Notes under the pieces: generated by a model | Seen by the model: only the letters and a program-made list of their open reading frames with translations | Database searches by the model: none | What the model was told of the DNA's origin: nothing | Virus record (IMG/VR): IMGVR_UViG_3300001683_001126 | Location: 1 to 21,519 of that record | Source of the DNA: a virus | Direction: 5' to 3' (one strand) | DNA: 21,519 bases | Shown here: in pieces, positions 239 to 18,512 of the stretch | How positions within the stretch are numbered: the first letter of the stretch is position 1 | Layout: each line of letters opens with the position of its first letter | Position numbers and translations under genes: made by a program

Positions 239-797
239 AAGTATATCCTTTTGGAGGTATAGATAATTCGCCTTCCCATACAGGAATTATTTCTTTAAAT
301 TCGCCCATATCTGGATTAGGTCTTAGGTGCATTTCAATGAGTTTACCGCCTACAAATTCACAATTTATATGTTCGTAAGAGCCTTTAAGTTTTGTTAACA
401 TGAAATGAATTTTAAATTTATCATTAACCCGTATCCATTTATCAAATTTCCATAAAGGGTTAGACTTATTTCTAAATCCTTCTGTTGTTATTCCTTGTTG
501 TACTATACGAGCTGAATTATCTATTGCATAATCTACGCTTAAATGTCTGCCTTCAAATAGCTCGCACCAAAAATAACCTGGTTTTAAATCCCATTTACCT
601 TTTTCTAAAAACCGTACTTCAGCACCTATGCCCATACCAGCAAGGTTGACACAAGGTCTAACTATATAATTATTTGATTCCGGTACTGCTACTTCAGCAG
701 GTCCGCATAGGTATCCTAATTTTTTGGCAAGAATTAGTTTGTCAAATATCCACAAGTCATCTGGATGACATTTTATCCAAGCATCGTGATCATACAT
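192..797 (-). CDS. Conserved phage protein with ATP-grasp-like features
   Basis: A 201-aa protein whose ATG overlaps the prs stop codon by one base (TAATG), so the two are probably translationally coupled; no separate Shine-Dalgarno is evident. I do not recognise the family with certainty. Several segments in order resemble an ATP-grasp fold: YIVRP followed by GMGIGA (residues 44-59), like a lysine/glycine-rich nucleotide loop; CELFEGRHLSVDY (78-90), like the 'E-G-E-S-D' strand; and NCEFVGGKLIEMHLRPN (145-161), like the C-terminal metal-binding strand that normally reads E-I-N-x-R. Here the Asn position is His157, with E147, E155 and R159 kept. The protein is short for a full ATP-grasp enzyme, so it may be a reduced or divergent member. 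Its coupling to prs suggests a role in nucleotide or cofactor metabolism, by inference only. Confidence 0.7.
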   Translation of the reverse strand: MYDHDAWIKCHPDDLWIFDKLILAKKLGYLCGPAEVAVPESNNYIVRPCVNLAGMGIGAEVRFLEKGKWDLKPGYFWCELFEGRHLSVDYAIDNSARIVQQGITTEGFRNKSNPLWKFDKWIRVNDKFKIHFMLTKLKGSYEHINCEFVGGKLIEMHLRPNPDMGEFKEIIPVWEGELSIPPKGYTYVEDKDYNRLGFFKR

Positions 798-1741
798 TAA
801 GGTATATATTCTGCTTTGTCAAATAACACTGATATAGATTCATCATGATGTACTCTACGAATTGCTTCTGCAAACATATTTGCTACTGATAGAATTCGTA
901 ATACTCTATTTTCTTTTGTTGGTATAGTATCAGTTATTACTAAACGAGACATCACCGAATGTTCCATCCTCTTCGCGCCATCGTTGCTCAATACCCCATG
1001 TGTTATGTAGGCTTGTACATCTTCTGCGCCTTCGTTTTCTAATGCTTTGGCGGCTTTTACAAGTGTTCCGCCTGTATCTATTATATCGTCTACTATTATA
1101 CATTGCTTTCCTAAAACGTCGCCGATGACGTTCATAGCCTCAGATTCGTTTGCACGATCTCTTCGCTTATCTATAATTGCAATATCTAGATTTAATTGTT
1201 TTGCTATCGCTCTTGCTCGAGGTACACCGCCTGCATCAGGTGAAATTATTATAGCTCTACCTTTAGTAACCATAGGATTTGTATTTAAATCTTTAACAAA
1301 TAAAGGTTGAGCATATAAATTATCTACTGGAATATCAAAGAAACCTTGAATTTGTCCTGCATGTAAATCCATTGTTAGTACACGATCAACACCTGCGGCT
1401 TCAATCATATTAGCAACAAGTTTTGCAGTAATAGGCGATCGCCCTGCTGGTTTTCTATCTTGTCTGGCATAACCGTAATAAGGCATTACAGCCGTAATTC
1501 TGCCTGCACTTGCTCTCTTACAAGCATCGGCAAGTATTAATAATTCCATTAAATTATCATTTGCTGGATTACATGTACTTTGAATTAAGAAAACATCTTC
1601 GCCACGGATATTTTCTTTTATTTCTACCCAGATTTCGTTGTCTGCGAATCTAGTAACTAGAGTTTCGCATAAATTTATGCCGGCAATGTTAGCAATATCA
1701 ATAGCAAGTTGGGTATTTGCGTTACCCGTTATCAGTTTCAT
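797..1741 (-). CDS. prs: Ribose-phosphate pyrophosphokinase (PRPP synthetase)
   Basis: Makes 5-phosphoribosyl-1-diphosphate from ribose 5-phosphate and ATP in the cytoplasm, the precursor for purine, pyrimidine and NAD synthesis. At 314 aa it has the full class I length. Visible landmarks are the RFADNE...ENIRGEDVF region (31-51), the catalytic flexible loop YYGYARQDRK (88-97), the metal/ATP segment DLHAGQIQGFF (125-135), the ribose-phosphate region SPDAGG (167-172), KRR (192-194) and the PRPP loop VDDIIDTGGT (217-226). No key residue appears lost, so the enzyme should be active. It begins 15 bases after the upstream coiled-coil gene ends and overlaps the next gene by one base. No clear Shine-Dalgarno precedes the ATG. 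Phage prs genes are known in several large myoviruses, where they support nucleotide supply or NAD+ rebuilding together with a nicotinamide phosphoribosyltransferase; no such partner is in this window. Confidence 0.97.
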   Translation of the reverse strand: MKLITGNANTQLAIDIANIAGINLCETLVTRFADNEIWVEIKENIRGEDVFLIQSTCNPANDNLMELLILADACKRASAGRITAVMPYYGYARQDRKPAGRSPITAKLVANMIEAAGVDRVLTMDLHAGQIQGFFDIPVDNLYAQPLFVKDLNTNPMVTKGRAIIISPDAGGVPRARAIAKQLNLDIAIIDKRRDRANESEAMNVIGDVLGKQCIIVDDIIDTGGTLVKAAKALENEGAEDVQAYITHGVLSNDGAKRMEHSVMSRLVITDTIPTKENRVLRILSVANMFAEAIRRVHHDESISVLFDKAEYIP

Positions 1742-3158: not shown

Positions 3159-3533
3159 ATGGCAAAGACATTATTTAAAGGTTTTTCAACAGTTCAAGGA
3201 CCGACAACTAGAAAATTACATGATATAGAGTTAGCAAAACAAGATTTAATAAATCATTTTCATACCAAAAAAGGGGAAAGAATTATGAGTCCCGGCTTTG
3301 GTTCAATGATTTGGCAATTAATGTTTGAACCATGGAATGATACAACCGAAGAAGCAGTTAAAGAAGATTGCATTAATATTGTAGCAAACGATCCTAGATG
3401 GAGATTAGAAGGAGTAAACACTTATTCAAGCGATAATGCGTTAAGTGTACAATTAAGATTATTTTACCAACCAACAGACCAATTGGAAGTTATGGCGTTA
3501 ACGTTTGACCGAGAACTAGAAGAAGGATTATAA
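3159..3533 (+). CDS. 25: gp25-like baseplate wedge subunit
   Basis: A 124-aa protein close to the length of T4 gp25 (132 aa). The family hallmark is GERIMSPGFGS...MFEPW (residues 39-59), followed by helical EEAVKEDCINIVANDPRW (64-81) and a C-terminal beta region. gp25 belongs to the gpW/gp25 lysozyme-like structural family. It sits in the baseplate wedge core, contacting gp6 and gp53, and helps initiate the sheath; it is not an active lysozyme. Its ATG follows AAGGAT at a good distance. The gp6-like gene starts 4 bases after its stop, the same order as in other T4-like phages. It is the first gene of the late plus-strand operon. Confidence 0.92.
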   Translation: MAKTLFKGFSTVQGPTTRKLHDIELAKQDLINHFHTKKGERIMSPGFGSMIWQLMFEPWNDTTEEAVKEDCINIVANDPRWRLEGVNTYSSDNALSVQLRLFYQPTDQLEVMALTFDRELEEGL

Positions 3534-3537
3534 ACAA

Positions 3538-6500
3538 ATGGCTACACGACAAGATGTTTTATTTGCCGCAGAAGATTACATAGCAAAATATCAATCATTT
3601 GCTCAATCTAATTTTCAAGCATATGATTTTGATACATTAAAAGCGGCTATGGTAGATTACATAAGATTAAACTACCCCGAAGATTACAATGATTGGATTC
3701 AATCATCTGAATTTATTAGTTTAATGGATCTAATAGCATTTATGGGCCATAATCTTGCTTTTAGAATTGATTTTGCTACTCGTGAAAATTTTATGGAAAC
3801 TGCTCAAAGCAGAGATTCAATATTAAAATTAGCTAGATTCTTAGGATATAATCCTACTAGAAATATAAATTCTAGTGGAGTATTAAAAATTAAAACAATA
3901 CGGACAACAGAAGCATTAATTGATTCTGATGGTAATAATATATTAAATGTAGATGTTACATGGAATGATTCCACAAATGCAAATGCATATGAACAATTTT
4001 TAATGATATTAAATTCTTCTTTTGGGAGTACTACACAATTTGGTACACCGTTTAAAACAGCAACATTAGATGGTGTTAAAACTGAAATTTATAAAATGAA
4101 TTCTCAAACACAACAAAATGTGACTCATACGTTTGCTGGTACAGTTCAAGGAGAATCTATACCATTTGAAATAACAAATGTCGATGTTGATTCGACCTTA
4201 GGTTTATTTGAGCCATATCCTGATCCAGATTCTGCTATGCGATGTTTATATCTTAATGATGGGAAAGGGAATTCTAGTGCTAAAACAGGATTTTTCTTTT
4301 ATTTTAAACAAGGTACTTTAGAATTTAAAGATACTTTAATTAATCGTCCTATTGAAAATCAAGTTATAGATATTACAACTGAAAATATTTCTAATGATGA
4401 TGTATGGGTACAAACTATTGATCAAAATGGAGCAATAACAACAATTTGGACTCCTGTTGATACTGTGGTCGGTTCTAATGTTATTTTTAATGCAGTTGAT
4501 AATAATATTAGAGATATTTTTCAAGTAGTTACTAATACCAATGATGCAATTAGTGTTAAATTTGCAGATGGTAGATTTGGTAATGCTCCAAAAGGAGTTA
4601 TTAGAGTATGGTATAGAGTAGGTAATGGGGAAGAATATACTATTAGAACAAATGATATTCAAAATATTGAAATTACTTTACCTTATTTCAGTAAACATGA
4701 TTTACAATTATATAATTTGATTGTAACATTGGATTTAGAAGAACCTGTAAGAAATAGTTCTTTAACTGAAACAAATACAAGCATCCAAACAAAAGCACCA
4801 CAGGTGTATAGTACACAAAATAGAATGGTATCTGCTACAGATTATGCAGTTTATCCTTTACAAGCATCTACAAATATTACAAAGATTAAGAGCACAAATA
4901 GAGTACATAGTGGTCATACTCGATATGTAGATATCAATGATCCAACAGGAACATATAAAGATTTAACAATATTTGGTGATGATGGATATATGTTTGAAGA
5001 AGAAACATTTTTACGAAAAACATTAACATTACCTTCTTCATTAAATGCTACCGATATAATAGAACAATATATACAATCCTATTTAGAAGAATCAGAAGTA
5101 CAAAATTTTTATTATCAAAAATATAAAAGTGATTTTGTTTGGTCAGGTGGCGATTCGGCGGACGATTTATATTTTACATCGTCAGATGAAGCAACCCCTG
5201 CTTTGGCCGCAAAAATGTGGACATGGAAAAAAATTACTGGATCTGCTAGGCAAGCAACTGGGTATTTTGAAAAGGGTGCAACGGCACCGGATATTGTTGC
5301 TATTGGAAAAGATTCATTAGATTCAATTGGTAAATTTTTAGTTGAAGGTGCAAATATAGAATTTGCAGAAGTAGATACTAACGGTCAATTTGTAATAGGA
5401 TCGTCTACTACTTGGGCAAGTATAACCGGAGTGTACGGAGATGGCAGAGGGGTTACAAGTTCTAGTTTGGGATATACAGGTAAAACCAAAGAAGACTATG
5501 GTACCATATCACTGTCTAGAAATATACCAAATAATGTTAGAATAAAACGTATAGCACCTGCATATAATAATAAATTTAGTTCAACAGAAATTACAGCAAT
5601 TAAAGATCAATTAGAACTTAATAATTCGTTTGGTATACGGTATGATCATCGAAATAATCGGTATGAAGTTATACTGGGAATTGATCTAGGCGAATCACAA
5701 GAAACATCGTTTAGTTTAACTGAGGATACTTCCGGAACACAATCGGATAGTAGTTATATATTAAGAGTAGAATTTCAAACAGAACAATGGGTATTTTTAG
5801 CAAGGGCCATAAAATATAATTTTGGATCTTTGAATAATGTTAGATTTTTTAATCAACGATTAGATAGTAAAGTTAGTAAGATAACAAAAAAATCAACAAA
5901 AGATGAGATTAGAATATTAGATATTAATTTACAACCGCTTATAACCTCAGGTGGCGGATTGGGTACATCCTTGTTAACTGCAAATTATAATTTTGATATA
6001 GAAGGGTTTTATACGTATGATGATGGTTACACAGATCCACGCAGAGTATTATTAAAATTTGCAGATACTAATAAAGATTATGTAATAGACAATCCGTTTG
6101 CATTTGAAAGTATTGTAGGATCAAATGAAATTTATATTGCAGATGAAGTAGTAGACAACTATGTTTATAAAACATTAATGACTACACCTCCTCCAACAAA
6201 TGCAAATGGTACTATAAAATATTGGGTATCATCTACTTCGTATGATTTGGCGGACAAAATTGAATACAATGGTGCAGAATATGAATCTAAAATTACAGGT
6301 AATTTAGGCATATTACCCACTGATACATCTAAATGGTCTTATATTAGAGATTTAATTTATGCAAAGTATACAGGTAGAGCAGGTGTACGATTTAAATGGA
6401 AACATGCCGCTAGTGAAGAAACAAGAATAGATCCAGCGGTTTCAAATATTATTGATACCTTTGTATTAACAAATACATATAATACTGAATTTAGAAATTG

Positions 6501-7089
6501 GCTTAAAAATGATAGACGAGCAAAATATAGACCTCTTTCTTATACTACTGAAGATTTAAAAACAATGTTTATAAAATTAGAAGATGCAAAAACATCCTCC
6601 GATACAATAATTTATAAATCTTGTGAATATAAAATTTTATTTGGAATAGAGGCAGATTATGCATTGCAAGCAAAATTTAAAGTAGTAAAAAATCCAATAT
6701 CGAGTTTAACTGATAATGAAATAAAAGCAACAATAGTAGATTATATTGATGATTATTTTGAACCAGAAAATTGGGATTTTGGTGAAACATTTTATTTTAC
6801 AGAACTTGCGGCGTATATTCATAGAAATATGATAGGTATAATTTCATCATTAGTTATTGTACCAACAAATGCTGATTCTAGATTTGGTAATATGTTTCAA
6901 GTTACACCCAATGCACACGAACTTTTCATAAGTGCCGCAAAAGTGTCTGATATAGATATAGTAGATTCATATACTGAAACAAATATAAGAATTGCCGCAG
7001 GACTTATAGAAACTCCGGTTTCAACAACAAGCATAACAGGTATTGCAACTGGATCAGGGTCTAGCTCTAGTAGTGGTAGTTATTATTAA
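3538..7089 (+). CDS. 6: gp6-like baseplate wedge protein, enlarged
   Basis: At 1183 aa it is almost twice T4 gp6 (660 aa). The N-terminal region (1-110) has the pattern expected of gp6: SNFQAYDFDTLKAAMVDYIR, DWIQSSEFISLMDLIAFMGHNLAFRID and the LARFLGYNP helix, which link it to neighbouring wedge proteins. A GRFGNAPKGVIRVWYRVGNG segment (about 345-370) resembles the baseplate-J-like core. The C-terminal domain (about 1050-1150: EIKATIVDYIDDYF, FYFTELAAYIHRN, SRFGNMFQVTP) matches the gp6 end that forms the wedge dimer ring around the hub. The extra length lies in the middle, including a chitin-binding-like segment at residues 895-935. The last 20 residues are Ser/Gly/Thr-rich and probably flexible. 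The ribosome binding site (AAGGAT) is inside the end of the gp25-like gene. It forms the inner baseplate ring. Confidence 0.9.
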   Translation: MATRQDVLFAAEDYIAKYQSFAQSNFQAYDFDTLKAAMVDYIRLNYPEDYNDWIQSSEFISLMDLIAFMGHNLAFRIDFATRENFMETAQSRDSILKLARFLGYNPTRNINSSGVLKIKTIRTTEALIDSDGNNILNVDVTWNDSTNANAYEQFLMILNSSFGSTTQFGTPFKTATLDGVKTEIYKMNSQTQQNVTHTFAGTVQGESIPFEITNVDVDSTLGLFEPYPDPDSAMRCLYLNDGKGNSSAKTGFFFYFKQGTLEFKDTLINRPIENQVIDITTENISNDDVWVQTIDQNGAITTIWTPVDTVVGSNVIFNAVDNNIRDIFQVVTNTNDAISVKFADGRFGNAPKGVIRVWYRVGNGEEYTIRTNDIQNIEITLPYFSKHDLQLYNLIVTLDLEEPVRNSSLTETNTSIQTKAPQVYSTQNRMVSATDYAVYPLQASTNITKIKSTNRVHSGHTRYVDINDPTGTYKDLTIFGDDGYMFEEETFLRKTLTLPSSLNATDIIEQYIQSYLEESEVQNFYYQKYKSDFVWSGGDSADDLYFTSSDEATPALAAKMWTWKKITGSARQATGYFEKGATAPDIVAIGKDSLDSIGKFLVEGANIEFAEVDTNGQFVIGSSTTWASITGVYGDGRGVTSSSLGYTGKTKEDYGTISLSRNIPNNVRIKRIAPAYNNKFSSTEITAIKDQLELNNSFGIRYDHRNNRYEVILGIDLGESQETSFSLTEDTSGTQSDSSYILRVEFQTEQWVFLARAIKYNFGSLNNVRFFNQRLDSKVSKITKKSTKDEIRILDINLQPLITSGGGLGTSLLTANYNFDIEGFYTYDDGYTDPRRVLLKFADTNKDYVIDNPFAFESIVGSNEIYIADEVVDNYVYKTLMTTPPPTNANGTIKYWVSSTSYDLADKIEYNGAEYESKITGNLGILPTDTSKWSYIRDLIYAKYTGRAGVRFKWKHAASEETRIDPAVSNIIDTFVLTNTYNTEFRNWLKNDRRAKYRPLSYTTEDLKTMFIKLEDAKTSSDTIIYKSCEYKILFGIEADYALQAKFKVVKNPISSLTDNEIKATIVDYIDDYFEPENWDFGETFYFTELAAYIHRNMIGIISSLVIVPTNADSRFGNMFQVTPNAHELFISAAKVSDIDIVDSYTETNIRIAAGLIETPVSTTSITGIATGSGSSSSSGSYY
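6220..6345 (+). other. CBM5/12-like (chitin-binding-like) segment in the gp6-like protein
   Basis: Residues 895-936 of the gp6-like protein read YWVSSTSYDLADKIEYNG, then AEYESKITGN, then a Pro-containing turn ending SKW. The pattern 'W, x5-6, Y, x2, D-x-hydrophobic, Y-N-G, x2, Y, ..., P, ..., W' is that of the small carbohydrate-binding module 5/12 often inserted in phage tail proteins. It is likely a surface-exposed decoration. The call rests on pattern memory only. Confidence 0.45.
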
Positions 7090-7100
7090 TGGAAAAATAA

Positions 7101-10100
7101 ATGGCAGATTATTCTAGTAACAATACCGATGATCAGGTTAATAATACTATACCTGGATCAACAAGTAAGAATATTTCAAAACGATCTACTTTTGATTTAT
7201 TACCTGAATATCTTCAGTCTGATACTAATAAGAAATTTTTAAATGCTACATTAGATCAAATGATTCTAAGTGGTAATCCTAAAATAGAATCAGGTTATAT
7301 TGGTAAAAAGGTAGGTACAATTCGATCATCAGCAAATGATGTTTATTCTGAAAGTAAGACAACCCTTAATAATAGATATCAATTAGATCCTACGGTTGTT
7401 AGTCAAAACCCATCTACATTAGAATATGAATCTGCTGTTCCTTATGATGATATTATTAGTAAATTAAAATACATCGAAGCTAATACTACAAATTTAGATA
7501 AATTATTTTCTGATTATAATTATTCTTGGCGTCCTCCAATTGATGTTGACAAGTTTATTAATTGGAATAGTTATGTTTGGTTACCGTTTGGTTTACCTCT
7601 AATAGGATTGCATGGCGAAGAAGCAAGCGATATTAACGGGAAACGTACATATACAACATCTGCTCAAGTAATTCATGGTAATAGAACACTTACTTTAGAA
7701 AATGGAATGCGTCTTGCATTTTCGGACGATAATAAAACATATCTAGTAACTGGTGTAGGTGAAAAAATAACATTAATTGATGAAAGTACTTTAGTTACAA
7801 CAACAGAAACGTCAATGGGTCTTGCTACACCAACATTGGCACTTGGTACAGCAGACACAGGAACTGGTGTTGTATCTTCTGTAACTGTAAGCAATCAAGG
7901 AACAGGTTATGTATATAATCCATTTTTTAATGTATATGATAGTACAGGCGGTCCAGCAACTCATGCAATAATAGAAGGCGAAATAGATCCGCCTACAGGA
8001 ACCGTTTCTTCATCTCCTACTATTACAGAAGCAGGTACCGGATATGCAACATCTGCTGTTGAACTACTTATAATGGGCGGACAAAAGTCTATGCCCCCAT
8101 ATATGAATGCTAATAAAGATGTACATTATGTTCATGAATATATTTGTATGGAACAATGTGCAAGAGATAATAATCCTTGGTCTAGAATTAATAACTGGCA
8201 TCATATTAATACTATAAAAGCAGTTAATACAATGTTAGGGCTTTCTCAATCATTTAAAATTGATGGTACTATAGTTGATGATGATTATGCCCAACGTCCT
8301 ATAATAGAATGGGAACGAAATTTACATTTATATAATTATGGTACACATTTTAGAAAACCTGTTGATATTATTATTACAGAAGCAATGGATCCGGCCGATG
8401 GAACAAATGGATTTTTATTATCTAGTGGTAGTGCGGCCCCCGAAGTTCACGAAGGATATACAGTTTTAGATAATGATAGAGTTTTATTTACAGCATCATC
8501 AAATGCTACATATCAAAATAGAATTTATAAAGTTAATACATCACAAACTGGTGCAACAGCCTTAACATTAGAAACAGATGGGAGAGGATCAGGATCCTCA
8601 ACACATGGTGATGTTGTTACTTCACTAAATGGTACTACATTACAAGGGCAAGATTATTGGTTCGACGGAAAAATACAAATATGGAAATTAGCACAAGAAA
8701 AAGATAGAAAAAATGTTCCAGTAAAATTTGAATTATACGATACAACATTTAATCCTTTATCTGAATATTTTGAAACAGATTTTTTGGGTAATACTGTTTT
8801 TGAATACCTAGAAGATAAAACTACTGCTGATAGATCAGAGGATAAATTTTTAGGGTTTGCATTAACATACGCAACTACAAATTATTTGTCATCTACAAAT
8901 ACATCTAATTTAATGTTTAATAATTCACACCAACAAACAATGTATCTATATGATAGAGGAACTACACCAAAAGATATTTCTGGCTCATATTACTTACGAA
9001 AATTTAATAGAGATACCACAAATTACGGGTTTGATAATGGTTGGCAACAAAGTTATAAACAAATTAGAACACCTATAATTATTACACAAGATGTTACTAA
9101 TGCAGATGACGATTTTGTTATAGATTTGGGCACAATAAATTTTGAACCAGAACGTAATTATACAGTTATAGCAACTGCAACTGGTTTTGAATTTTATTTA
9201 AAATCTGCATATGGTTATGAAAAACTTACAGGGGCCAATCCTACTCTTTATCTTGCAAGAAATAACACATACACATTTGATATAGAAAATGGTACAACAG
9301 CATTTCAAATACAAGATTCAAGCGCATCAGCATATAATACAGGTGTAACAAATAATAATACACATAGTGGAATAGTAACATTTGCTGTTGGAGAAACAGA
9401 ACCAAATGATATATTATATTATTCTTCTCCTAGTGGAACCGGTAAAATTATTTTATTGGATGAAGTTTTAGAGCAAGGATGGCCAGAAGTATTTCATAAA
9501 GGTGTACAATTAAAACGAACTATACATTATATTTTTAATGGTAAAAATATTGTTATACCATACGAAAGTACAGGTACAGATGAGACAGTATCTGATGGTG
9601 GTGTACCGGTATTTGCACCATCAGGACAAACACAAAGTACTGAAAATTTATTAACAGTAGGCGATATAGTAGATGTAAAATTTTATACAACAGACACAAG
9701 TACCACAGACGAATGGGCGTATAATGTTCCGAACAGTCTTAAAAATAATCCTGGTAATGAAGTGCTAGGGCAAGTTCAATATGCAGAAATATTTCCACAT
9801 TTTGTTGATGTATTAGATAGACAACCTGGATTAATGGGTTTAGCATTTGGTAATAATAATTATAGAAGTTTAGGGGTTGAAAAAAGATTAGGTGGAATAA
9901 TAAATCAACAAATATCCCCTTTACTTAAACTAGGATTAATATTAGGGAATGAAAATTATGATTTATTATTGGCACTTGACTATACTGCTGATAGTTATAA
10001 CGTATTTAAAAAGAAGTTTGTACAAAAAATAGAACAATTATATGCCTCAATGGCTCCCGGCACAAAAACAAGTGCTCTTGTAGACCAAGCATTATATGAT

Positions 10101-13100
10101 CTTAATTTAGGTAAAAATAATACATTTCCATTTGCTAATAGCGATATGGCATATTACTTTAATATGGTTGAAAAAACATATACAGTTACAACATCTGCTG
10201 ATACATTTATTTTACCCAAAACAATTACAAGAAAAAATCAATATCATAATCATGTATATGTTTATACAATAGATACTAACAATGTAGAAACATTTATAAC
10301 TTCATTCACATTAGATCCTACTGCAAATACTGTTAAATTAGGAACAGCGGTAAGTTCAGGAAAGGTTGTAATAAAAGTTAGTATTGACGAAGGACTAAGT
10401 TTTATACCACCTACTTTTGCTAAATTAGGTGTAGCTCCTGCATTTGTTCCAAAGAGTTATGTTGATGATACGGGTACTAGAACAGTAGTTGTAATAGAAG
10501 GACATGATGGATCAAAAACAGTAGCATTTGAATCATCTATTACTGGAGCAGGTTCTGTTTTATCTTATACAATTACAGATTATAGAGACAAAGCACTATT
10601 AGAATTAGAAAATAGAATTTATGGTCATATACAATCTGAGTTTGTAACTAATGATGATATAGTATATTATTCACATAGTCCGGAACCTAAACGCAAAGAT
10701 TTAAGTTTATTGCCTGGCAATTTTAGAACAACACCGTATACAACAAAAAATCAAAATGATTTTTATGACAATTATTTTAATACATTTAAACTCGCCCGAG
10801 GCATAACGTTATTAGAAAATACAGGATATGATGCTTCTAACCCGTTTACTCATAATTATTCATCTACTCAAGCAGAAGGAATAGGTTATTGGAGAGGTAT
10901 ATACAAATATTATTTTGATACAGATAGACCTCACACACATCCTTGGGAAATATTAGGTTTTATTGGAAAGCCATCGTGGTGGGATACCCATTATGAATGG
11001 GTTAATGTTACTAAACGTAACAATATGATTGATGCACTAGAAAGAGGAATTATATCAGAACCAGGGCAAGCTATTGTGCAAGATATTACTGTTACAAGAC
11101 CTGGCGTAACATTTCCTGTTGCCGCAGATGGTACATTAGAAGATCCTGTTACTGCCTTGTTAGTTACTGCCCCTACTGCTATTGGAGCCCAAGAAAATTG
11201 GACTATAGGTGATAGCAGTCCAATAGAAACAATATGGCAACGAAGTTCGTTGTTTCCATATGTAGAAAATCAATTTTTGTTTTCGATTACTCCGGCAAAA
11301 TTTTTAGAAAAACATTACGATACAGAAGATAGAAAAACAGATGGCGATGCCCAAGCAATAACAATTAATATAGTAGCGGCCAAACCCGAAGTTGGAGGGG
11401 GCAACAGTACTGTTAATTCTTATTTTGTTTATTACATAAACGGTATCCAGCAACAAAAATTAGTATTACAAGCAGGTAATGTATATACATTTGATCAAAC
11501 AGATTCATCTAATTCTATACACCCTTTTGAATTATCTGAAACATACGACGGTACTCGAGGAAGCGGTACAAAATATGTAACAGGCTGGGATCAAACAAAT
11601 TCTTCAATGCGTACATTTTCGCCTACATCTAGTACCCCAGAAGTATTATATTATTATTGTCAATATCATGACGACATGGGCGGTACTATAGAAGTATTAC
11701 CTGTATCACATGAAAAACAAATTATATCTAATAAAACAAAAAAACGACATAATTCAAATGAATTATATATTCATAATGAAGTAGATACTAATAGTTTATC
11801 GAGACGAGTATTAGGGTTGCAACAACCTATTGTTGATAGATTAATGTTTTTGGGTAATAATATATATACTGAATTTGCTAGACAGTTACGACAATTAAAT
11901 ACAAAATTAAGTTATAAAATGCAAGGATTTTCTAAAAAATCGTCAATATCTATGTTAGCAGATAGTTTACAATCTGAGAAATCAAATAACTTTATACCAA
12001 ATGATGACTTAACTATTAATTTTCATACTTCGGCTCCATACAAAGAATTTATTTATAGTGGTGTTGAGATTATCCAAACAGCAACTGGATATGCTGTTTA
12101 TGGTTATAATAATAATAAACCATATTTTTTAACACAAAAAACTTTAAAAACAACAATTTCTCAAATTAAAGTAAGTGAAACCAATATTCAATTATATACT
12201 GAATTTGCAGAAGGTACTGATAGAATAGATTATGGTACAGAATTTACATCAGCAAATGATGTTTATAACTTTTTACATGCGTATGGAAAATATCTAGAAA
12301 ATATTGGTTTTGAGTTTACACATCCTAATATAGATGGCGCATATGAAGATTGGACACTAACTGCCCAACAATTTATATTATGGTCCGAAGCAGAATGGGG
12401 TGACGATACATCAATTAAATTAAGTCCTGCTGGTAACTTATTATATCTTAAACATGATCATGGACATGTGAAAAGTAATGAGTATGAATATGGTAGTTTC
12501 TATTTAGATGTAAATAAATCATTGTTTAATTCAACAAGCATTGATGTTGATAGACAATTAAGTTATATTACAGTTAAACCTAAAGATGAAGATAGGGCAA
12601 TTTATTGTGCCTCACTTGTTGTTTGTGATTATGAACATTTATTAATAATCAATAATAAAACTATTTTTGATGATATGATTTATTATCCTATTTTAGGCGA
12701 TGCAAAACTTAGATTTAAAATAGAATATTTAAAATCTCCAGAATGGAATGGTACATTATATGCACCAGGATATTTTGTATATGGAGATACAATTTATGAG
12801 AATTTTGATAAAACAGCAGACAGTATAACTTCTAATTATTTTGCATCAGAGGAAACTGCTCTTAACAAAGATACAATAAATGTTGCTAGAAAAAACATAG
12901 GATACGAAAAGAAACAATTTTTAAGAAATATGCGTCTTTCAGAGGATGTTCAATTTCAATTTATGAAAGGTGTCAGCCATTTAAAAGGTACTCCTGAAGT
13001 TTTCAATAGATTAACTAGAAGTACATTTTTACTTGAAGCAAGTGTTGATATTAATTTACAAGAAGAATGGATGTTTAGGTTAGGCGAATTTGGGCCAACA

Positions 13101-16100
13101 ACTACCCAAACAACTAAAGAATTTACACTTAAAGATACTGACATAAAAGCAAATCCGCAATTAATAAACTTTGGGGAAATTTATCCAGGACAAGCAACAG
13201 ATTTTGATTATGATACAACTATTAGTATGTTGGGTGGAGATGGTAGATGGTTAGAGCAACCATCAACTAATCCTGCTGTTCAATTTAATACTAGAATTCA
13301 ATTTGATCAAAGTATTGATACTATTGCTGAAGTTGAAACATATGAAAAAGATTTACCTAATGCAGGTTATCCTAGATTAGAAGAAACAACATATCAAACT
13401 TTTAGAGTAGACGATTTGCCATCATTGTATAAGAAATATAAAGATGATGATAGTTCTTTATTGTACAAATTACTCCAAACTCCTAACTGGAAAGATACTT
13501 ACACTTATGCAAAAGCATACTATGTACGATATAAAGGTAAACGATATCTTTCTACTCGAATATTAGATTCTGCCGCTCAAAGTTTTTATGGTATAGTAAA
13601 TGCAAAATATACAAAAACACATGCAAGTGGTATGTTAGCAGAAGTTGTAATAGAAAAATGTCTTTTTACAGTAGATGGTATCACTAAAATGACATCAACA
13701 ACAGATCCATTTCTTTATGGTATTACTGGTGTTACTGCTAGATTTGGTGAGTATGATTTTGCTTATTATACTCCTTCTTCACAATTATCAGAAAGCACAG
13801 TTGATGCAAGTGTATCTAAAGGTGCTGATGCAAATGGTAATTTCACATATATTTTTACATTTGCAGATGGCCAAGTTCCGGCTGTTAATGTTCCGGCAGA
13901 TGATGATAAAATATATTTGTCTGCTTTTAATTATAAAACAGATGCAGAAGCATCTGATAATACTGTATTAGATAGATGGATTGAAGCAGGAGAAGCAGGA
14001 TTATTTAATGTATGGACAGCGGATGCGGGCGCAGGCGATTGGGCAACATTTAATCTTCAAGATGATGATTTTGCCATTGAACAAATTTGTAAAGGATATC
14101 TAACAGGCGACGAAGCTCTTATTAAATTAGGGTCTGCTCATTATTTGTCTGAAGGTGACTATGTTTTAATAACGGGTGCAGAAAACAATCCTGCATTAAA
14201 TGGAATTCATAAAGTAACAGGGTTTCCAACAGGAACAGATTGCCAAACTTGCGGTTTACGAGAAGATAAACAATTTTATATAGATGAATTTGTTGGTAAT
14301 AATGAAGTATATGGAAAAGTATTTGTATTTAGAAAATCGCGATTCTTTGGTTTTTCTGAATTGTTTTCTTCTATTGCCGATTTAAAATATTCGTGGGTAA
14401 CAAACAATTATGCTTATGCGGATCAATATTATGATGTTCAAAACCAAATAATAGGTGCTTCCTCTGCGTCTGGTTCGTATAACCCTGCATTCGAAGCAGG
14501 CGTGTTTACTATTCTTTCATCTTATGCTTTACTATATACTGCAACAACGGCAGATTTAGACATATATATAGGAGAATTTAGAACAGGATTTGAGCCTGGC
14601 ACAGGTAGTTCAAAAGCATGGGAAGTTATTGGAACTAGTCTTATTTTTTACCCTGAAAATTTAGGTGGTACTTTTCAAGCAGGCCAACCTATTGTTATTG
14701 TGTATAAAAATAGATCTATAGGTTGGGGTACATTTAAGTATGACAGTGAAAATAGAACATGGGTAGAATTAAACAAACAACAACCAAAAGCAGATACAGG
14801 ACAATTAGCAAATGTTATTGTTTATGATTATGAACAAAATAGAGAATTAGCTAGAGCAGAAGTATGGGATCCTTTTAAAGGTATTGTTCCTGGTGTTGCA
14901 GAAAAAGAAATTGATATTATTTCGGGTTATGACCAGGCATTGTACAACGCAACTACCCAAGACGAAGAAGCACTAACAACAACACGATGTTGGGGCGGAT
15001 CAGAAGTCGGAATATCTTGGTGGAATTTAAATACTGTTAGGTATATAGAGTATGAACAACCAAATGATTTAGATTATACATTTAAACATTGGGGGGAACA
15101 ATTTCCTGGGTCTTCAATAGATGTTTATGAATGGACCAAAAGCACGGTTGCCCCAGATGAATGGATTACTTTAGTTAATGGCAATTATGAAATAGATGAA
15201 GAAATTGCATCTGGCGAAGTATACACAAAAGTTTTAAGTGGAGTAACACATTATTATTGGGCCGAAGAAGAAGCAATGAATCCTCAAACTGGTCAGGTGG
15301 TTCCATATTATTATTTTTGGGTTAAAAATAAAACAACAGTTCCACGAACACAATCTCATAGAGAGATATCTACAAAAGTAATTGCTGAATATTTAAATGA
15401 TCCAACAGGTAATGGAATTTTTTGGGCATCGCCAGGCGGAGCATCAAATATTATAACAGGAAATGTAGGTGATCAATTAACTCAACACTCTGTTTTTCAA
15501 ATAAATTTTACAAGTGATGTAGAAGATGAACATAAAGAATGGATAACCATTCGAGAAGAAGATCAAGAAACAACAGTACCAGATAGATTTGCAAAAAGAT
15601 TACATGAAAGTATTTTAGGTGTAGATGAAAATAAAGATATTTTAACAGTAGCAGGAATAGAAGAAGATCAAAATTATGAGTATGATGATGGAGCAGGTAG
15701 TACAACAATTTATACTGCTAAGAAATTTAATTATGATTGGAATCAACAATTAGAATATAGAGAAAGAAATGTTGTTAAAAACAATACCAAATTGTATAAA
15801 ACACATAAAAATTTAAATTTAGTTAAAACAAATACTAAATTATCTGTTGATAATCAAACTAATACAATTCAACTTAGAATAGGTGAAAAAGCAAATGAAC
15901 TTACATTTCCTGCTTTTATTGAAATAGGAACACCGCCTGCTGAATCAAATACATATGGATTGCCATATGAAAATATATTGGCATATGCATATGCCAATAT
16001 AGTAAATGGTACAGTAGATAGTATTACTGTCAATAGACCCGGGCAGGGATATAATGCGGCAACTAAACCTATAGTTTCTATAAGTGATCCAATTACAGAA

Positions 16101-18512
16101 GGTGGAGTTCGGGCAGTAGTTGAAGATTCGGATATAACAATAGTAAATGGTGAAATTACTGCGATTGGTATTCAAACTGCAAATAAAGGATCAGGGTATG
16201 AACAAAGTTATGCAATTATAGATGAAGATGAAGTAGCAGAAGAAATTGTAGAGTTAAAATATTTTGATAGATTTGCTACCCGGTTATTTAATTCTGATGT
16301 TAATATATTAGCGAATGCAGATTTTGAACAGAAAACCACTGCTTTTTGGGATACAAAATTAGGAACGTTGGACACAACTGGTAAAGTTACCGGGGTTGCA
16401 ATTTATGCAGGTGGTACAGGTTATACAGACGGTCCCGCATCAGCCACTGGTGGTTCAGGAACAGGGTTATATCTTGATATAACACAAGTAAATGGAGTAA
16501 TTCAATCTGCTACGATTGCTATAGGTGGTGGAGGTTATGCAATAGGAGATGTAGTATCGGTATATTCACCAGCGGGCGGAATAGATGGTACTTTTACGAT
16601 TGAAACTGTTAATTCAAATGCAACAATTTATGGTAATGCAAGCGGAGTATATACTGGTGATAGTGTAAACGCAACCCATTATGTTGGTCAAAGAAGTTTA
16701 AAAAATGCTTCACTAGCTGGTGGTGTAGTATTAGAAAGTATACAATATCAAGCCAAAGCATTATTTAAAACAAATGTAAGTTTAGATGCTGTAAAATTAA
16801 AATATGGCCATGCGGCAACTGATGTTGATTTTGATGCCATGACAGCCGTTACCTTAACACCTCAAACCTCTTCAGAAGAATTAAGTGTAGGAACATCATT
16901 AGTTTATAGTGTACAAGGAGAATTTGTCTCGCATACAGACGATTATCATGCAATATGGTTAGAAGTAGTACCACCAGATTCAAATGGTTTTATATTACAT
17001 ATTGATAGTTTAGAATTTACAAATCCTGCTATCGGTGATCGAATTGTAGTAGGTAGAGGTGCTCAAAGCACTACCGCTCAAGCCCATTTACAATATGCAA
17101 CATTTAAAGAATTAGGCAATTTTGCCAGACAACGTTGGCAAGAATTATTAACTTATGAATGGATGGATGATAGAAATATATTTGTAGATACACCCAACAT
17201 GGTTCCTAATTTACGGTTGCATGAAATATTTAGATATGGAGGACAAGTTCGTCCATATAAACAAAGTTGGGTTAAGAGCAGAATTCAAGGAATACGAGCA
17301 TTAGTTCAAAATGCAAATAAGAATTTATTAAAAATGAATTTAAGTGATTCGCATCTTAATTGGAAGAAATATTTAGGTACTGCATTTGTTAAAGGTAATT
17401 CAACATTTACTCCTCAAGATTATTGGAAATACACAGATTGGTTCCATCCAGATTATACTATTAGTTCTTCATCTGTTGCCCAATATACTGTTACAGAAAG
17501 AAATAATTTATATGATGTTGATGAAGATGTATATTCTGTAGTAAGAGTTGATAGTGATGATGTAGATGGTAACTGGGCGTTTTATCAATGGATAGGTGAT
17601 AATTGGTTTAAAATTGCTAAACAAAATGGAACTATTCAATTATCAACATTATTGTATGATGTGCAGGATGTAGATGCAGGTTGGGATTCCGCAGAATATG
17701 ATATAGGTGGTTGGGATAAAAATTATACCAATGAATTAGCCGCAATACTTAGAGGATTACATGAAGATATTTTTATAGGTCCATATAAACAATATTATAA
17801 AGAGTTGTTTTTTGCAATTATACATTTTATCTATGCAGAACAAACCAATTTAGATTGGGTAGCAAAAACAACATTTTTACAATTACAACGAAAAACACCA
17901 GGGGCTCTTACTCCTAAAACATTTGATGTAGGTAGTGAAGAAGATATTTTAGATTATCTTAATGAAGTTAAACCGTATCATTCAAAAATTGAAACAATTT
18001 TTGATGCAAGAACATTTGATGAAGAAATTAATGCGTCTGCAGATGAAGTTGTAGATATACGAATACAAACAAACACATCTGGTAGTACTGAAGATAACGA
18101 CTCTAGAGCATGGAGAATGTTTATAGATAATACAGGTACAAGAATTTATGAAACAATGTTAGATGCTAACAAATCAACTACAGCAGAATATGTAGATGCA
18201 ATAGAAACAGAAATAACTGTTGTTGCTTCGGGAGGTTTCCCTGCATCTGGAGAAGTTGTTATTGGCGCTGAACGAATAAGATATGATTCTACAAGTAGCA
18301 ATATACTTCATTCATGTATACGAGGAGTAGCAGGTACAGCGGCGGCAATTCATATATCTGGAGCAGAGGTAGTAGTAGCAGGACCAGCAGTTGGTCTCCC
18401 GGTTGATCCTGATCCAGAGGCATATAATGCATTTAATGATGCAACAACAACAATACAGGCAAGTACAAATACACAAGCGGCTCTTATAAATTCTGGTAAA
18501 GGAACCATATAA
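7101..18512 (+). CDS. Giant baseplate/tail structural protein in the gp7 position
   Basis: A single uninterrupted frame of 3803 aa, starting 11 bases after the gp6-like stop. T4 has the 1032-aa wedge protein gp7 here; I infer a gp7-position protein but see no decisive homology. The N-terminus (LLPEYLQSDTNKKFLNATLDQM, then WRPPIDVDKFINWNSYVWLP) looks like a baseplate-docking region. Conserved-looking blocks lie along it: LMGLAFGNNNYRSLG (about 905-925), HPWEILGFIGKPSWWD (about 1280-1295), EVWDPFKGIVPG (about 2586-2597), FPGSSIDVYEW (about 2667-2677) and NEVKPYHSK (about 3620). Modules appear inserted between these: GxGY repeats (Tyr at 270, 315, 2984, 3033, 3108, 3146), a DNDRVLF...RIYKV unit (about 454-478), two cupredoxin-like domains (about 695-785 and 1414-1535) and a C-terminal FPASGEVVIGAERIRY unit (about 3710-3760). 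There is no signal peptide or membrane segment. It probably forms a large peripheral baseplate arm or fibre base. Confidence 0.85.
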   Translation: MADYSSNNTDDQVNNTIPGSTSKNISKRSTFDLLPEYLQSDTNKKFLNATLDQMILSGNPKIESGYIGKKVGTIRSSANDVYSESKTTLNNRYQLDPTVVSQNPSTLEYESAVPYDDIISKLKYIEANTTNLDKLFSDYNYSWRPPIDVDKFINWNSYVWLPFGLPLIGLHGEEASDINGKRTYTTSAQVIHGNRTLTLENGMRLAFSDDNKTYLVTGVGEKITLIDESTLVTTTETSMGLATPTLALGTADTGTGVVSSVTVSNQGTGYVYNPFFNVYDSTGGPATHAIIEGEIDPPTGTVSSSPTITEAGTGYATSAVELLIMGGQKSMPPYMNANKDVHYVHEYICMEQCARDNNPWSRINNWHHINTIKAVNTMLGLSQSFKIDGTIVDDDYAQRPIIEWERNLHLYNYGTHFRKPVDIIITEAMDPADGTNGFLLSSGSAAPEVHEGYTVLDNDRVLFTASSNATYQNRIYKVNTSQTGATALTLETDGRGSGSSTHGDVVTSLNGTTLQGQDYWFDGKIQIWKLAQEKDRKNVPVKFELYDTTFNPLSEYFETDFLGNTVFEYLEDKTTADRSEDKFLGFALTYATTNYLSSTNTSNLMFNNSHQQTMYLYDRGTTPKDISGSYYLRKFNRDTTNYGFDNGWQQSYKQIRTPIIITQDVTNADDDFVIDLGTINFEPERNYTVIATATGFEFYLKSAYGYEKLTGANPTLYLARNNTYTFDIENGTTAFQIQDSSASAYNTGVTNNNTHSGIVTFAVGETEPNDILYYSSPSGTGKIILLDEVLEQGWPEVFHKGVQLKRTIHYIFNGKNIVIPYESTGTDETVSDGGVPVFAPSGQTQSTENLLTVGDIVDVKFYTTDTSTTDEWAYNVPNSLKNNPGNEVLGQVQYAEIFPHFVDVLDRQPGLMGLAFGNNNYRSLGVEKRLGGIINQQISPLLKLGLILGNENYDLLLALDYTADSYNVFKKKFVQKIEQLYASMAPGTKTSALVDQALYDLNLGKNNTFPFANSDMAYYFNMVEKTYTVTTSADTFILPKTITRKNQYHNHVYVYTIDTNNVETFITSFTLDPTANTVKLGTAVSSGKVVIKVSIDEGLSFIPPTFAKLGVAPAFVPKSYVDDTGTRTVVVIEGHDGSKTVAFESSITGAGSVLSYTITDYRDKALLELENRIYGHIQSEFVTNDDIVYYSHSPEPKRKDLSLLPGNFRTTPYTTKNQNDFYDNYFNTFKLARGITLLENTGYDASNPFTHNYSSTQAEGIGYWRGIYKYYFDTDRPHTHPWEILGFIGKPSWWDTHYEWVNVTKRNNMIDALERGIISEPGQAIVQDITVTRPGVTFPVAADGTLEDPVTALLVTAPTAIGAQENWTIGDSSPIETIWQRSSLFPYVENQFLFSITPAKFLEKHYDTEDRKTDGDAQAITINIVAAKPEVGGGNSTVNSYFVYYINGIQQQKLVLQAGNVYTFDQTDSSNSIHPFELSETYDGTRGSGTKYVTGWDQTNSSMRTFSPTSSTPEVLYYYCQYHDDMGGTIEVLPVSHEKQIISNKTKKRHNSNELYIHNEVDTNSLSRRVLGLQQPIVDRLMFLGNNIYTEFARQLRQLNTKLSYKMQGFSKKSSISMLADSLQSEKSNNFIPNDDLTINFHTSAPYKEFIYSGVEIIQTATGYAVYGYNNNKPYFLTQKTLKTTISQIKVSETNIQLYTEFAEGTDRIDYGTEFTSANDVYNFLHAYGKYLENIGFEFTHPNIDGAYEDWTLTAQQFILWSEAEWGDDTSIKLSPAGNLLYLKHDHGHVKSNEYEYGSFYLDVNKSLFNSTSIDVDRQLSYITVKPKDEDRAIYCASLVVCDYEHLLIINNKTIFDDMIYYPILGDAKLRFKIEYLKSPEWNGTLYAPGYFVYGDTIYENFDKTADSITSNYFASEETALNKDTINVARKNIGYEKKQFLRNMRLSEDVQFQFMKGVSHLKGTPEVFNRLTRSTFLLEASVDINLQEEWMFRLGEFGPTTTQTTKEFTLKDTDIKANPQLINFGEIYPGQATDFDYDTTISMLGGDGRWLEQPSTNPAVQFNTRIQFDQSIDTIAEVETYEKDLPNAGYPRLEETTYQTFRVDDLPSLYKKYKDDDSSLLYKLLQTPNWKDTYTYAKAYYVRYKGKRYLSTRILDSAAQSFYGIVNAKYTKTHASGMLAEVVIEKCLFTVDGITKMTSTTDPFLYGITGVTARFGEYDFAYYTPSSQLSESTVDASVSKGADANGNFTYIFTFADGQVPAVNVPADDDKIYLSAFNYKTDAEASDNTVLDRWIEAGEAGLFNVWTADAGAGDWATFNLQDDDFAIEQICKGYLTGDEALIKLGSAHYLSEGDYVLITGAENNPALNGIHKVTGFPTGTDCQTCGLREDKQFYIDEFVGNNEVYGKVFVFRKSRFFGFSELFSSIADLKYSWVTNNYAYADQYYDVQNQIIGASSASGSYNPAFEAGVFTILSSYALLYTATTADLDIYIGEFRTGFEPGTGSSKAWEVIGTSLIFYPENLGGTFQAGQPIVIVYKNRSIGWGTFKYDSENRTWVELNKQQPKADTGQLANVIVYDYEQNRELARAEVWDPFKGIVPGVAEKEIDIISGYDQALYNATTQDEEALTTTRCWGGSEVGISWWNLNTVRYIEYEQPNDLDYTFKHWGEQFPGSSIDVYEWTKSTVAPDEWITLVNGNYEIDEEIASGEVYTKVLSGVTHYYWAEEEAMNPQTGQVVPYYYFWVKNKTTVPRTQSHREISTKVIAEYLNDPTGNGIFWASPGGASNIITGNVGDQLTQHSVFQINFTSDVEDEHKEWITIREEDQETTVPDRFAKRLHESILGVDENKDILTVAGIEEDQNYEYDDGAGSTTIYTAKKFNYDWNQQLEYRERNVVKNNTKLYKTHKNLNLVKTNTKLSVDNQTNTIQLRIGEKANELTFPAFIEIGTPPAESNTYGLPYENILAYAYANIVNGTVDSITVNRPGQGYNAATKPIVSISDPITEGGVRAVVEDSDITIVNGEITAIGIQTANKGSGYEQSYAIIDEDEVAEEIVELKYFDRFATRLFNSDVNILANADFEQKTTAFWDTKLGTLDTTGKVTGVAIYAGGTGYTDGPASATGGSGTGLYLDITQVNGVIQSATIAIGGGGYAIGDVVSVYSPAGGIDGTFTIETVNSNATIYGNASGVYTGDSVNATHYVGQRSLKNASLAGGVVLESIQYQAKALFKTNVSLDAVKLKYGHAATDVDFDAMTAVTLTPQTSSEELSVGTSLVYSVQGEFVSHTDDYHAIWLEVVPPDSNGFILHIDSLEFTNPAIGDRIVVGRGAQSTTAQAHLQYATFKELGNFARQRWQELLTYEWMDDRNIFVDTPNMVPNLRLHEIFRYGGQVRPYKQSWVKSRIQGIRALVQNANKNLLKMNLSDSHLNWKKYLGTAFVKGNSTFTPQDYWKYTDWFHPDYTISSSSVAQYTVTERNNLYDVDEDVYSVVRVDSDDVDGNWAFYQWIGDNWFKIAKQNGTIQLSTLLYDVQDVDAGWDSAEYDIGGWDKNYTNELAAILRGLHEDIFIGPYKQYYKELFFAIIHFIYAEQTNLDWVAKTTFLQLQRKTPGALTPKTFDVGSEEDILDYLNEVKPYHSKIETIFDARTFDEEINASADEVVDIRIQTNTSGSTEDNDSRAWRMFIDNTGTRIYETMLDANKSTTAEYVDAIETEITVVASGGFPASGEVVIGAERIRYDSTSSNILHSCIRGVAGTAAAIHISGAEVVVAGPAVGLPVDPDPEAYNAFNDATTTIQASTNTQAALINSGKGTI
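9183..9455 (+). other. Cupredoxin-like module 1, metal ligands lost
   Basis: Residues about 695-785 of the giant protein resemble the second module: LYLARNNTYTFDIENG aligns with LVLQAGNVYTFDQTDS, and the closing strand LYYSSPSGTGKI aligns with LYYYCQYHDDMGGTI. The Cys, His and Met positions are Ser, Pro/Ser and Thr, and no His is seen where the first ligand should be. It should fold as a beta sandwich without copper. Confidence 0.5.
11340..11705 (+). other. Cupredoxin-like module 2 with full His-Cys-His-Met set
   Basis: Residues about 1414-1535 of the giant protein contain an opening strand LVLQAGNVYTFDQTDSSNS, His1474 in SIHPFEL, and a closing segment LYYYCQYHDDMGG with Cys1520, His1523 and Met1526. 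Plastocyanin uses His37, Cys84, His87 and Met92: the first spacing (46 against 47) and the C-x2-H spacing match, while H-x2-M is shorter and recalls the CuA region of cytochrome oxidase subunit II. The fold call rests on this pattern; metal binding in the virion is inference. Confidence 0.6.
15952..15969 (+). repeat. Short inverted repeat next to a long palindrome
   Basis: Arms CATATGG and CCATATG (7 bp) flank the loop ATTG. It lies 4 bases upstream of the 28-nt palindrome and shares its CATATG core, so the two may have a common origin. It lies inside the giant gene and encodes residues near YGLPYE. Confidence 0.6.
15974..16001 (+). repeat. 28-nt perfect palindrome inside the giant gene
   Basis: The left arm TATATTGGCATATG (15974-15987) is followed without a loop by its exact reverse complement (15988-16001). 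It encodes ILAYAYANI, just before the third GxGY repeat of the giant protein. A loop-free 14-bp arm is unexpected by chance in about 21 kb even at this AT content. It could extrude as a cruciform or form a hairpin in the transcript; its role is unknown. Confidence 0.85.
15990..16570 (+). repeat. Cluster of four GxGY beta-repeat units in the giant protein
   Basis: Four units of the form hydrophobic-x-S/G-hydrophobic-x-hydrophobic, 4-6 residues, G-x-G-Y occur here: VDSITVNRPGQGY (Tyr2984), ITAIGIQTANKGSGY (Tyr3033), VTGVAIYAGGTGY (Tyr3108) and IQSATIAIGGGGY (Tyr3146). Two more lie near the N-terminus (Tyr270 and Tyr315) and four in the fibre-like protein downstream. Each unit probably makes two beta strands and a tight glycine turn. 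Confidence 0.65.

Follow-up and report, generated by a model that had tools for sequence, protein, structure and literature searches.

A cupredoxin-like module with a putative metal site, inserted in a giant phage baseplate or tail protein and recurring in the tail proteins of marine phages

Background

Whether a giant structural protein of a phage carries a domain of the kind found in copper proteins, and whether such a domain is peculiar to that one protein, are the questions raised by the 21,519-base record of an uncultured marine phage (termed here the window). An open reading frame (ORF) of 3803 residues within it had been proposed (in what is called here the original prediction) to encode, at positions 11340-11705 (i.e., residues 1414-1535), a cupredoxin-like domain with an intact set of copper ligands: His1474, followed by Cys1520-x2-His1523-x2-Met1526. 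These residues are found where they had been placed, as is the turn AGNVYTFD, which starts at residue 1458; the segment YYYCQYHDDMGG, which contains the Cys-His-Met loop, starts at residue 1517.

The natural points of reference are the type 1 copper proteins amicyanin, plastocyanin and rusticyanin, with which the domain has in common the fold, the order His...Cys-x2-His...Met and the register of the ligands. Within the cupredoxins matched here, the set His, Cys, His and Met serves copper, and the amicyanin loop has the form C-x2-H-x2-M, which is also the loop spacing of the window domain. Here profile comparisons, alignments of orthologues and predicted structures are brought to bear on these questions.

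A domain inserted in a giant virion protein

The giant ORF (7101..18512, plus strand) lies directly behind a gene for a gp6-like baseplate wedge subunit (3538..7089, plus strand; PHROG 10646), which in turn follows a gene for a gp25-like baseplate wedge subunit (3159..3533, plus strand; PF04965, PHROG 43); in phage 121Q the gene at the place equivalent to the gp6-like gene is annotated as T4 gp6-like. A match to the profile of PHROG 10938, a virion structural protein, runs along the giant protein (E 6.4e-300). The gene order (gp25-like, gp6-like, giant ORF) is identical in the Pseudomonas jumbo phage PA5oct, whose record notes ESI-MS/MS for the homologue of the giant protein. Hence, by its neighbours and by its PHROG family, the domain has the virion (baseplate or tail) context that had been proposed for it. 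By its position behind gp6 the giant ORF could correspond to gp7 of T4-like baseplate wedges; the reading as a true gp7 was dropped, since its profile matched none of the P-HM1 and S-RIM2 ORFs compared, among which those of gp7 are truncated where the locus ends. A ribose-phosphate pyrophosphokinase gene, identified by Pfam, also lies beside the baseplate genes, on the minus strand (window 797-1741).

The domain itself (domain 2; residues 1414-1536; 11340..11708, plus strand) lies between the segments HYDTEDR and EKQIISNKTK and is missing from all four of the jumbo phage homologues that were aligned (those of PA5oct, 121Q, SCTP-2 and Vibrio 2.275.O); the PHROG 10938 profile, correspondingly, has only about 7 positions spanning residues 1412 to 1537. 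Profiles that do match it are those of PHROG 27200 (E 1.6e-14), PHROG 30742 (E 5.3e-11) and PHROG 677 (E 1.5e-9). An iterated profile places the core of the domain at residues 1444-1532 (11430-11696, plus strand); as the window copy was one of the four seeds of this profile, the E-value obtained for it lends no independent support. The giant ORF contains only 11 cysteines in its entire length, and domain 2 a single one. A second copy of the module, which the original prediction had missed, occurs upstream at residues 712-784 (domain 1; 9234..9452, plus strand; E 3.3e-21 with the HMM of the iterated profile, E 2.7e-8 with PHROG 677), and it has none of the four proposed ligands.

Alignment of the window protein with those of ten orthologue loci (11 giant copies in all) reveals how domain 2 varies among its nearest relatives. 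Against the close orthologues L006, L005 and L008, residues 1401-1500 form the least conserved block of 100 residues: 64%, 58% and 54% of the positions are identical to those of the window protein, as compared with 86%, 86% and 81% overall. This low conservation, taken together with the absence of the domain from the jumbo homologues, suggests that domain 2 is an exposed, swappable module within the giant protein. Both His residues are kept in 11/11 copies; Cys and Met are kept in six (the window, L004, L011, L012, L013 and L006), with the spacing C-x2-H-x2-M in all of these except L006, the loop of which is four residues longer. The other five (L005 and L007-L010) share the longer loop of L006 and have Cys replaced by Asp and Met by Glu (for L005, where the profile alignment ends before the Glu, this residue was read from the orthologue alignment). 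This variant, seen in one clade only, may mean that the site has come to suit a harder metal or that it no longer works. Domain 1 is without the ligands in all 11 copies.

A second swappable module occurs at another site of the giant protein: L005 and L008 share an insert of 253 residues, a repeat that by eye has the look of a beta-propeller, after window residue 2866 (window 15698), and the window and L006 lack it. Both carriers have the Asp/Glu variant of domain 2, and in L009 and L010 the gap count or the length matches this insert.

Retention and loss of the four residues

Conservation was counted after four loci (L001, L002, L003 and L106) had been left out as duplicates of loci that were kept. 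His-Cys-His-Met is present in 190 of 211 domains from 181 loci, which include the best 80 of at least 600 per scan, and in 42 of 48 non-redundant domains (<70% identity). Taken singly, and on the plus strand throughout, His1474, the first proposed ligand (CAC, 11520..11522), is His in 45/48 of these non-redundant domains; Cys1520, the proposed thiolate ligand (TGT, 11658..11660), is Cys in 43/48; His1523, the second proposed His ligand (CAT, 11667..11669), is His in 44/48; and Met1526, the proposed axial ligand (ATG, 11676..11678), is Met in 43/48. The residue after the first His is Pro in 42/48, as compared with Asn in 6/7 of the cupredoxins aligned.

The IMG/VR scans with N-terminal or gp9-type queries kept the best 80 loci of at least 600 rows each; hence domains closely related to the queries weigh more than their share in the counts. 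Queries with the N-terminal half of the domain, which contained the first His and none of the Cys, second His and Met, yielded 172 domains from 158 loci (the best 80 of at least 600 for each query), and 170 of these have all four residues. One of the two exceptions runs off the end of its contig; the second is the single copy in the ORF at 1513-2238 of locus L176, where Asp replaces the first His and Leu the Met, with Cys and the second His kept. For the gp9-type subfamily all four residues are present in 106/109 domains (from the best 80 loci of at least 600 rows).

The non-redundant domains were pooled into a set of 74, one 'HCH-' row having been dropped from an initial 75; domains of six phage records that were already in the first set had also been left out. 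All four ligands are present in 67 of these, three in none, two in one, one in two and none in four. In 0 of 10,000 independent permutations of the columns were there as many copies with one ligand or none. The procedure takes no account of shared descent, and among the seven exceptions are a pair of homologous copies and a pair that stand in tandem. With 67 domains keeping four residues, none keeping three and seven keeping two or fewer, the residues appear to be retained or lost as a set, as is expected of a metal site, and in this sense the intact ligand set of the original prediction is upheld. Free variation among homologues had been named in advance as evidence against that prediction; it is found in part, since Cys and Met are replaced in 5/11 giant copies, and the nearest orthologues thus keep both His throughout but Cys and Met in only 6/11, although across the family the residues are coupled. 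Loss can occur right beside retention: in a protein of phage locus L273 (ORF 4649-7147, residues 220-483) the module is repeated three times in tandem, once intact and twice with every one of the four residues changed (to DSTI and ESSA). One S-RIM2 copy keeps only His of the four ligands. A chance motif is excluded by the PHROG and tblastn matches of the domain and by the coupled conservation.

Relationship to cupredoxins

Four alignments were compared: that of the window family (A6, 77 sequences); that of the gp9-type subfamily (A10, 45 sequences); that of the gp9 core alone (A11, 25 sequences); and that of seven cupredoxins (A8), which comprise two phage genes that pass the PF00127 cut-off and five plasmid sequences, four of these being annotated as plastocyanin/azurin family or halocyanin and the fifth an ORF without annotation. 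The window family matches the gp9-type subfamily with an hhalign E-value of 2e-25 (probability 99.7), and the gp9 core alone with an E-value of 4.2e-27; by sequence, the window and gp9-type domains are one family. The gp9-type alignment in turn matches the cupredoxins (E 5.7e-10, probability 96.6) with Cys, His and Met in register and its first His on a non-ligand His of the template. In a PDB search it aligns with rusticyanin (E 2.6e-6) such that each of the four residues falls on the corresponding His, Cys, His or Met of that protein, and copper proteins fill the best 60 of 80 rows. The gp9 core alone gives weaker matches, both to the cupredoxins (E 8.5e-6, probability 83, over 28 columns) and to the PDB (E 0.019, copper proteins in 12/15 rows), so that the strongest link to cupredoxins runs through the rusticyanin-like members of the subfamily. 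At least one of the 45 gp9-type sequences (L307) lies above the Pfam Copper-bind cut-off (24.1 versus 21.2 bits), and 28/45 match that family at E<=0.1.

Direct comparison of the window family with the seven cupredoxins gives E 3.7e-4 (probability 36.5) and sets H1474, C1520 and H1523 on the His, Cys and His of a phage plastocyanin; with trimmed alignments the score is 24.0 over 23 columns at the Cys-His loop, as compared with 16.8 for the highest of 200 column shuffles. The best PDB matches of the window family are a cerato-platanin-like protein (E 0.097) and pseudoazurin (E 0.33). Searches with the window domain itself gave no useful sequence match in the PDB (two unrelated rows at E 0.7) and no match to the Pfam cupredoxin families, the gathering cut-off of PF00127 Copper-bind not being reached; the NCBIfam search gave nothing of use. 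The HMM check proposed for the domain therefore fails for the window copy but succeeds for a member of its family.

The spacing that had been likened to that of plastocyanin agrees with it for the C-x2-H part but not for the Met, which follows the second His after two residues in the domain and after four in the phage-borne plastocyanins (PF00127 proteins) of P-SSM2 and S-RIM2 (CGPHKGAGM and CDPHAGAGM, i.e., C-x2-H-x4-M). A plastocyanin captured from a host was rejected as an origin of the domain, the PF00127 genes of these two phages being separate small genes with that other spacing.

The AlphaFold2 (AF2) model of the window domain has a pLDDT of 85.3. Within it, strands E90-95 and E101-108 place C95 and M101 at facing ends, and the predicted order of the proposed ligands is His, Cys, His, Met, with Cys, the second His and Met sharing the loop that connects the final two strands. 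Foldseek gives this model no clear match in the PDB (semaphorins come first, nitrous oxide reductase (N2OR) at rank 4 and amicyanin at rank 21), but with VIA-align the top 12 rows are all cupredoxins (Z 5.6-6.3); Ig-like dystroglycan (Z 5.3-5.6) is level with the last cupredoxin row (5.6), and N2OR reaches Z 4.5-5.0. From the register at the end of the VIA alignment, model residue 108 on amicyanin residue 105 puts M101 on M98, if there is no gap between. The gp9-type model has a pLDDT of 90.8; cupredoxin or copper-oxidase domains make up 49/50 of the Foldseek matches listed for it, and its best VIA Z is 7.0, with an rmsd of 2.0-2.2 over 74-79 residues. For both models the VIA Z values are below 8, which according to the tool may mean only a common arrangement of elements and is not decisive alone. 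Hence the cupredoxin match of the window domain's own predicted model is suggestive only, and the comparison of predicted structures that had been called for speaks for the claim with one program and not clearly with the other. A Greek-key beta-sandwich with cupredoxin topology follows by homology, that is, through the links from the window family to the gp9-type subfamily and from the latter to cupredoxins, along with the fold of the gp9-type model; the proposal of a cupredoxin-like domain is thus supported by profile and fold evidence tying the family to cupredoxins.

CuA domains (those of nitrous oxide reductase and COX2) were considered as well, given the fold match to N2OR and the similar end of the loop. 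In CuA the loop likewise ends in H-x2-M and two Cys bridge the centre; a CuA centre was rejected for the window domain, which has one Cys, not two.

A recurring module of marine phage tail proteins

The domain had been described from a single giant baseplate protein; it is not confined to that protein but recurs as a module in many tail proteins of marine phages (cyanophages, pelagiphages and Methylophilales phages). With the domain as a tblastn query, 183 of 50,697 phage records match at E<=0.01, many of them near-identical isolates: 137 are Synechococcus, 19 Prochlorococcus, 17 Cyanophage, 4 Methylophilales and 3 Pelagibacter records, and 3 are others. A gp9-type query matches 21 records at E<=1e-5 and adds one Actinomycetia phage. 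Isolates on record with the domain include S-TIM5, P-SSM2, P-HM1, S-RIM2, HTVC028P, Mosig and Melnitz-2. Where the carriers are annotated, they are described as tail fibres or baseplate wedge subunits, among others, and as gp9, the baseplate wedge tail fibre connector. As expected, many proteins of cyanophage tails and baseplates also come up in a BFVD search with the window model. Members of the 77-sequence alignment are matched by twelve PHROG families, including 677, 693, 708, 30742 and 32294. For the phage tail proteins of PHROG 677, 708, 693, 30742 and 27200, the profiles match the domain, which is only a part of each, and the names of the matching PHROGs mention neither copper nor cupredoxin.

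Hardly more than the domain is present in Cyanophage PSS2 gp080 (112 residues), which has Met alone of the four ligands. A Subtilase (Peptidase_S8) domain is joined to cupredoxin-like modules in a P-HM1 protein (locus L187), and in phage S-H9-1 a domain match lies under a gene annotated as a subtilisin-like serine protease.

Nature and role of the site

The explanation favoured here, and considered quite probable, is that a conserved giant tail or baseplate protein has acquired a module of cupredoxin fold at a position that varies and is probably exposed, and that this module bears a putative metal site with copper as the likely metal. In most copies His, Cys, the second His and Met would form a mononuclear site at one end of the beta-sandwich, copper being suggested by precedent and zinc being the likely substitute, perhaps if the protein is assembled in the cytoplasm. 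As a beta-sandwich on display, the module would serve adhesion or stability, and the metal site, where present, would add stability or a binding feature. That ligand-free copies persist beside intact ones suggests that the site is optional and that the module is probably a displayed adhesion or stability domain; both the Asp/Glu residues of 5/11 giant copies and the ligand-free second copy in the giant protein suggest that the fold is useful without the site. As compared with type 1 cupredoxins, which are soluble or membrane electron carriers, the phage module is internal or terminal in large tail proteins, is often tandem or ligand-free, and mostly has Pro after the first His.

These same ligand-free or ligand-poor copies (domain 1 of the giant protein, PSS2 gp080, the S-RIM2 copy and two of the three L273 copies) are what one would see if the domain were a cupredoxin relic serving as an Ig-like spacer or adhesion domain, with the four residues kept for packing rather than for metal, and the resemblance of the window model to Ig-like dystroglycan points the same way; packing, however, hardly explains why Cys and Met are each kept in 43/48 domains between the last two strands, nor the all-or-none pattern of loss, and this reading is regarded as quite unlikely. 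Somewhat better placed, though still doubtful, is the possibility that the site holds another metal, namely zinc taken up from the cytoplasm at assembly rather than copper, one clade having exchanged Cys and Met for Asp and Glu to suit a harder metal. The five giant copies that keep both His with these carboxylates agree with this, as does a Bacillus cupredoxin (4hcg) that, by the title of its structure, was solved with zinc bound; on the other hand, the exchange was seen in one clade only, and the matched cupredoxins use the same four-residue set for copper. Homology to electron carriers might also suggest a redox or electron-transfer element, or a copper sensor acting during attachment. Redox work is nevertheless the least likely role, and a very improbable one, inasmuch as Pfam matches listed for nine ORFs of the window include no redox domain that could act as a partner, and copies with and without the site occur within one protein; the presence of the module in many unrelated tail proteins likewise counts against it.

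A bolder proposal, rather unlikely on present evidence, is that many common marine phages display real copper sites on their tails: their cupredoxin modules would be loaded with copper, either by the host as it lyses or by the surrounding seawater, and this copper would help in host docking. Such sites would parallel, for copper, the 'Trojan horse' proposed for iron, one clade perhaps having been re-tooled with carboxylates for another metal. Were this so, a classical copper-protein fold would be at work in phage tails, away from electron transport, and copper would be added to the list of trace metals possibly carried by marine viruses. Since isolates with the domain are on record, copper in marine phage particles is directly testable on purified virions.

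No description of a cupredoxin domain in a phage virion was found among the matches listed from titles and beginnings of abstracts in the open-licence literature, and the use of the cupredoxin family as a tail module is rated here as what is new. The nearest printed idea, among those matches and as far as the parts of that source consulted indicate, is that of iron in tail fibres: HxH sites are proposed there to bind iron (the 'Trojan horse' or 'Ferrojan horse' idea), and metal in marine phage tails is proposed to matter for docking and for trace-metal chemistry (PMC11705849). In contrast to the HxH sites in those parts of that paper, the present domain has a cupredoxin fold with Cys and Met among its proposed ligands. 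A word search of the paper on the P-SCSP1u structure (PMC10575957) finds 'copper' once, for an EM grid, and no mention of a cupredoxin, an Ig-like domain or a metal.

Relatives in cellular contigs and beyond

Relatives of the domain were also found at 40 loci in cellular contigs, some of which may be phage DNA, judging by their resemblance to phage carriers. Of 44 cellular copies 39 are intact; among the five others, two are cut by contig ends and three are ligand-poor second copies. Giant proteins of Bacteroidetes carry the domain, one of them on a chromosome of 2.0 Mb (L202), and in three Bacteroidetes giants (L212, L226 and L227) there are second copies without most of the ligands. Two other proteins from cellular contigs (L210 and L213) combine the module with lipoprotein-like N-termini and with cadherin or Big_9 domains, and three Prochlorococcus proteins (L220, L221 and L225) combine it with DUF4214.

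The Pfam family PF25489 (At5g54830-like domain) is a possible eukaryotic relative of the module: it matches 10/77 and 13/45 members of the window-family and gp9-type alignments, respectively, at E<=0.1 (best 1.4e-5), its score for the window domain being below the cut-off. The window model also resembles, with E-values of 1.8e-6 to 2.2e-4, three beta-sandwich proteins in BFVD (A0A481Z6J5, A0A481Z7Q7 and A0A481YVH3), which come from Pithovirus LCPAC302/304 and Marseillevirus LCMAC201.
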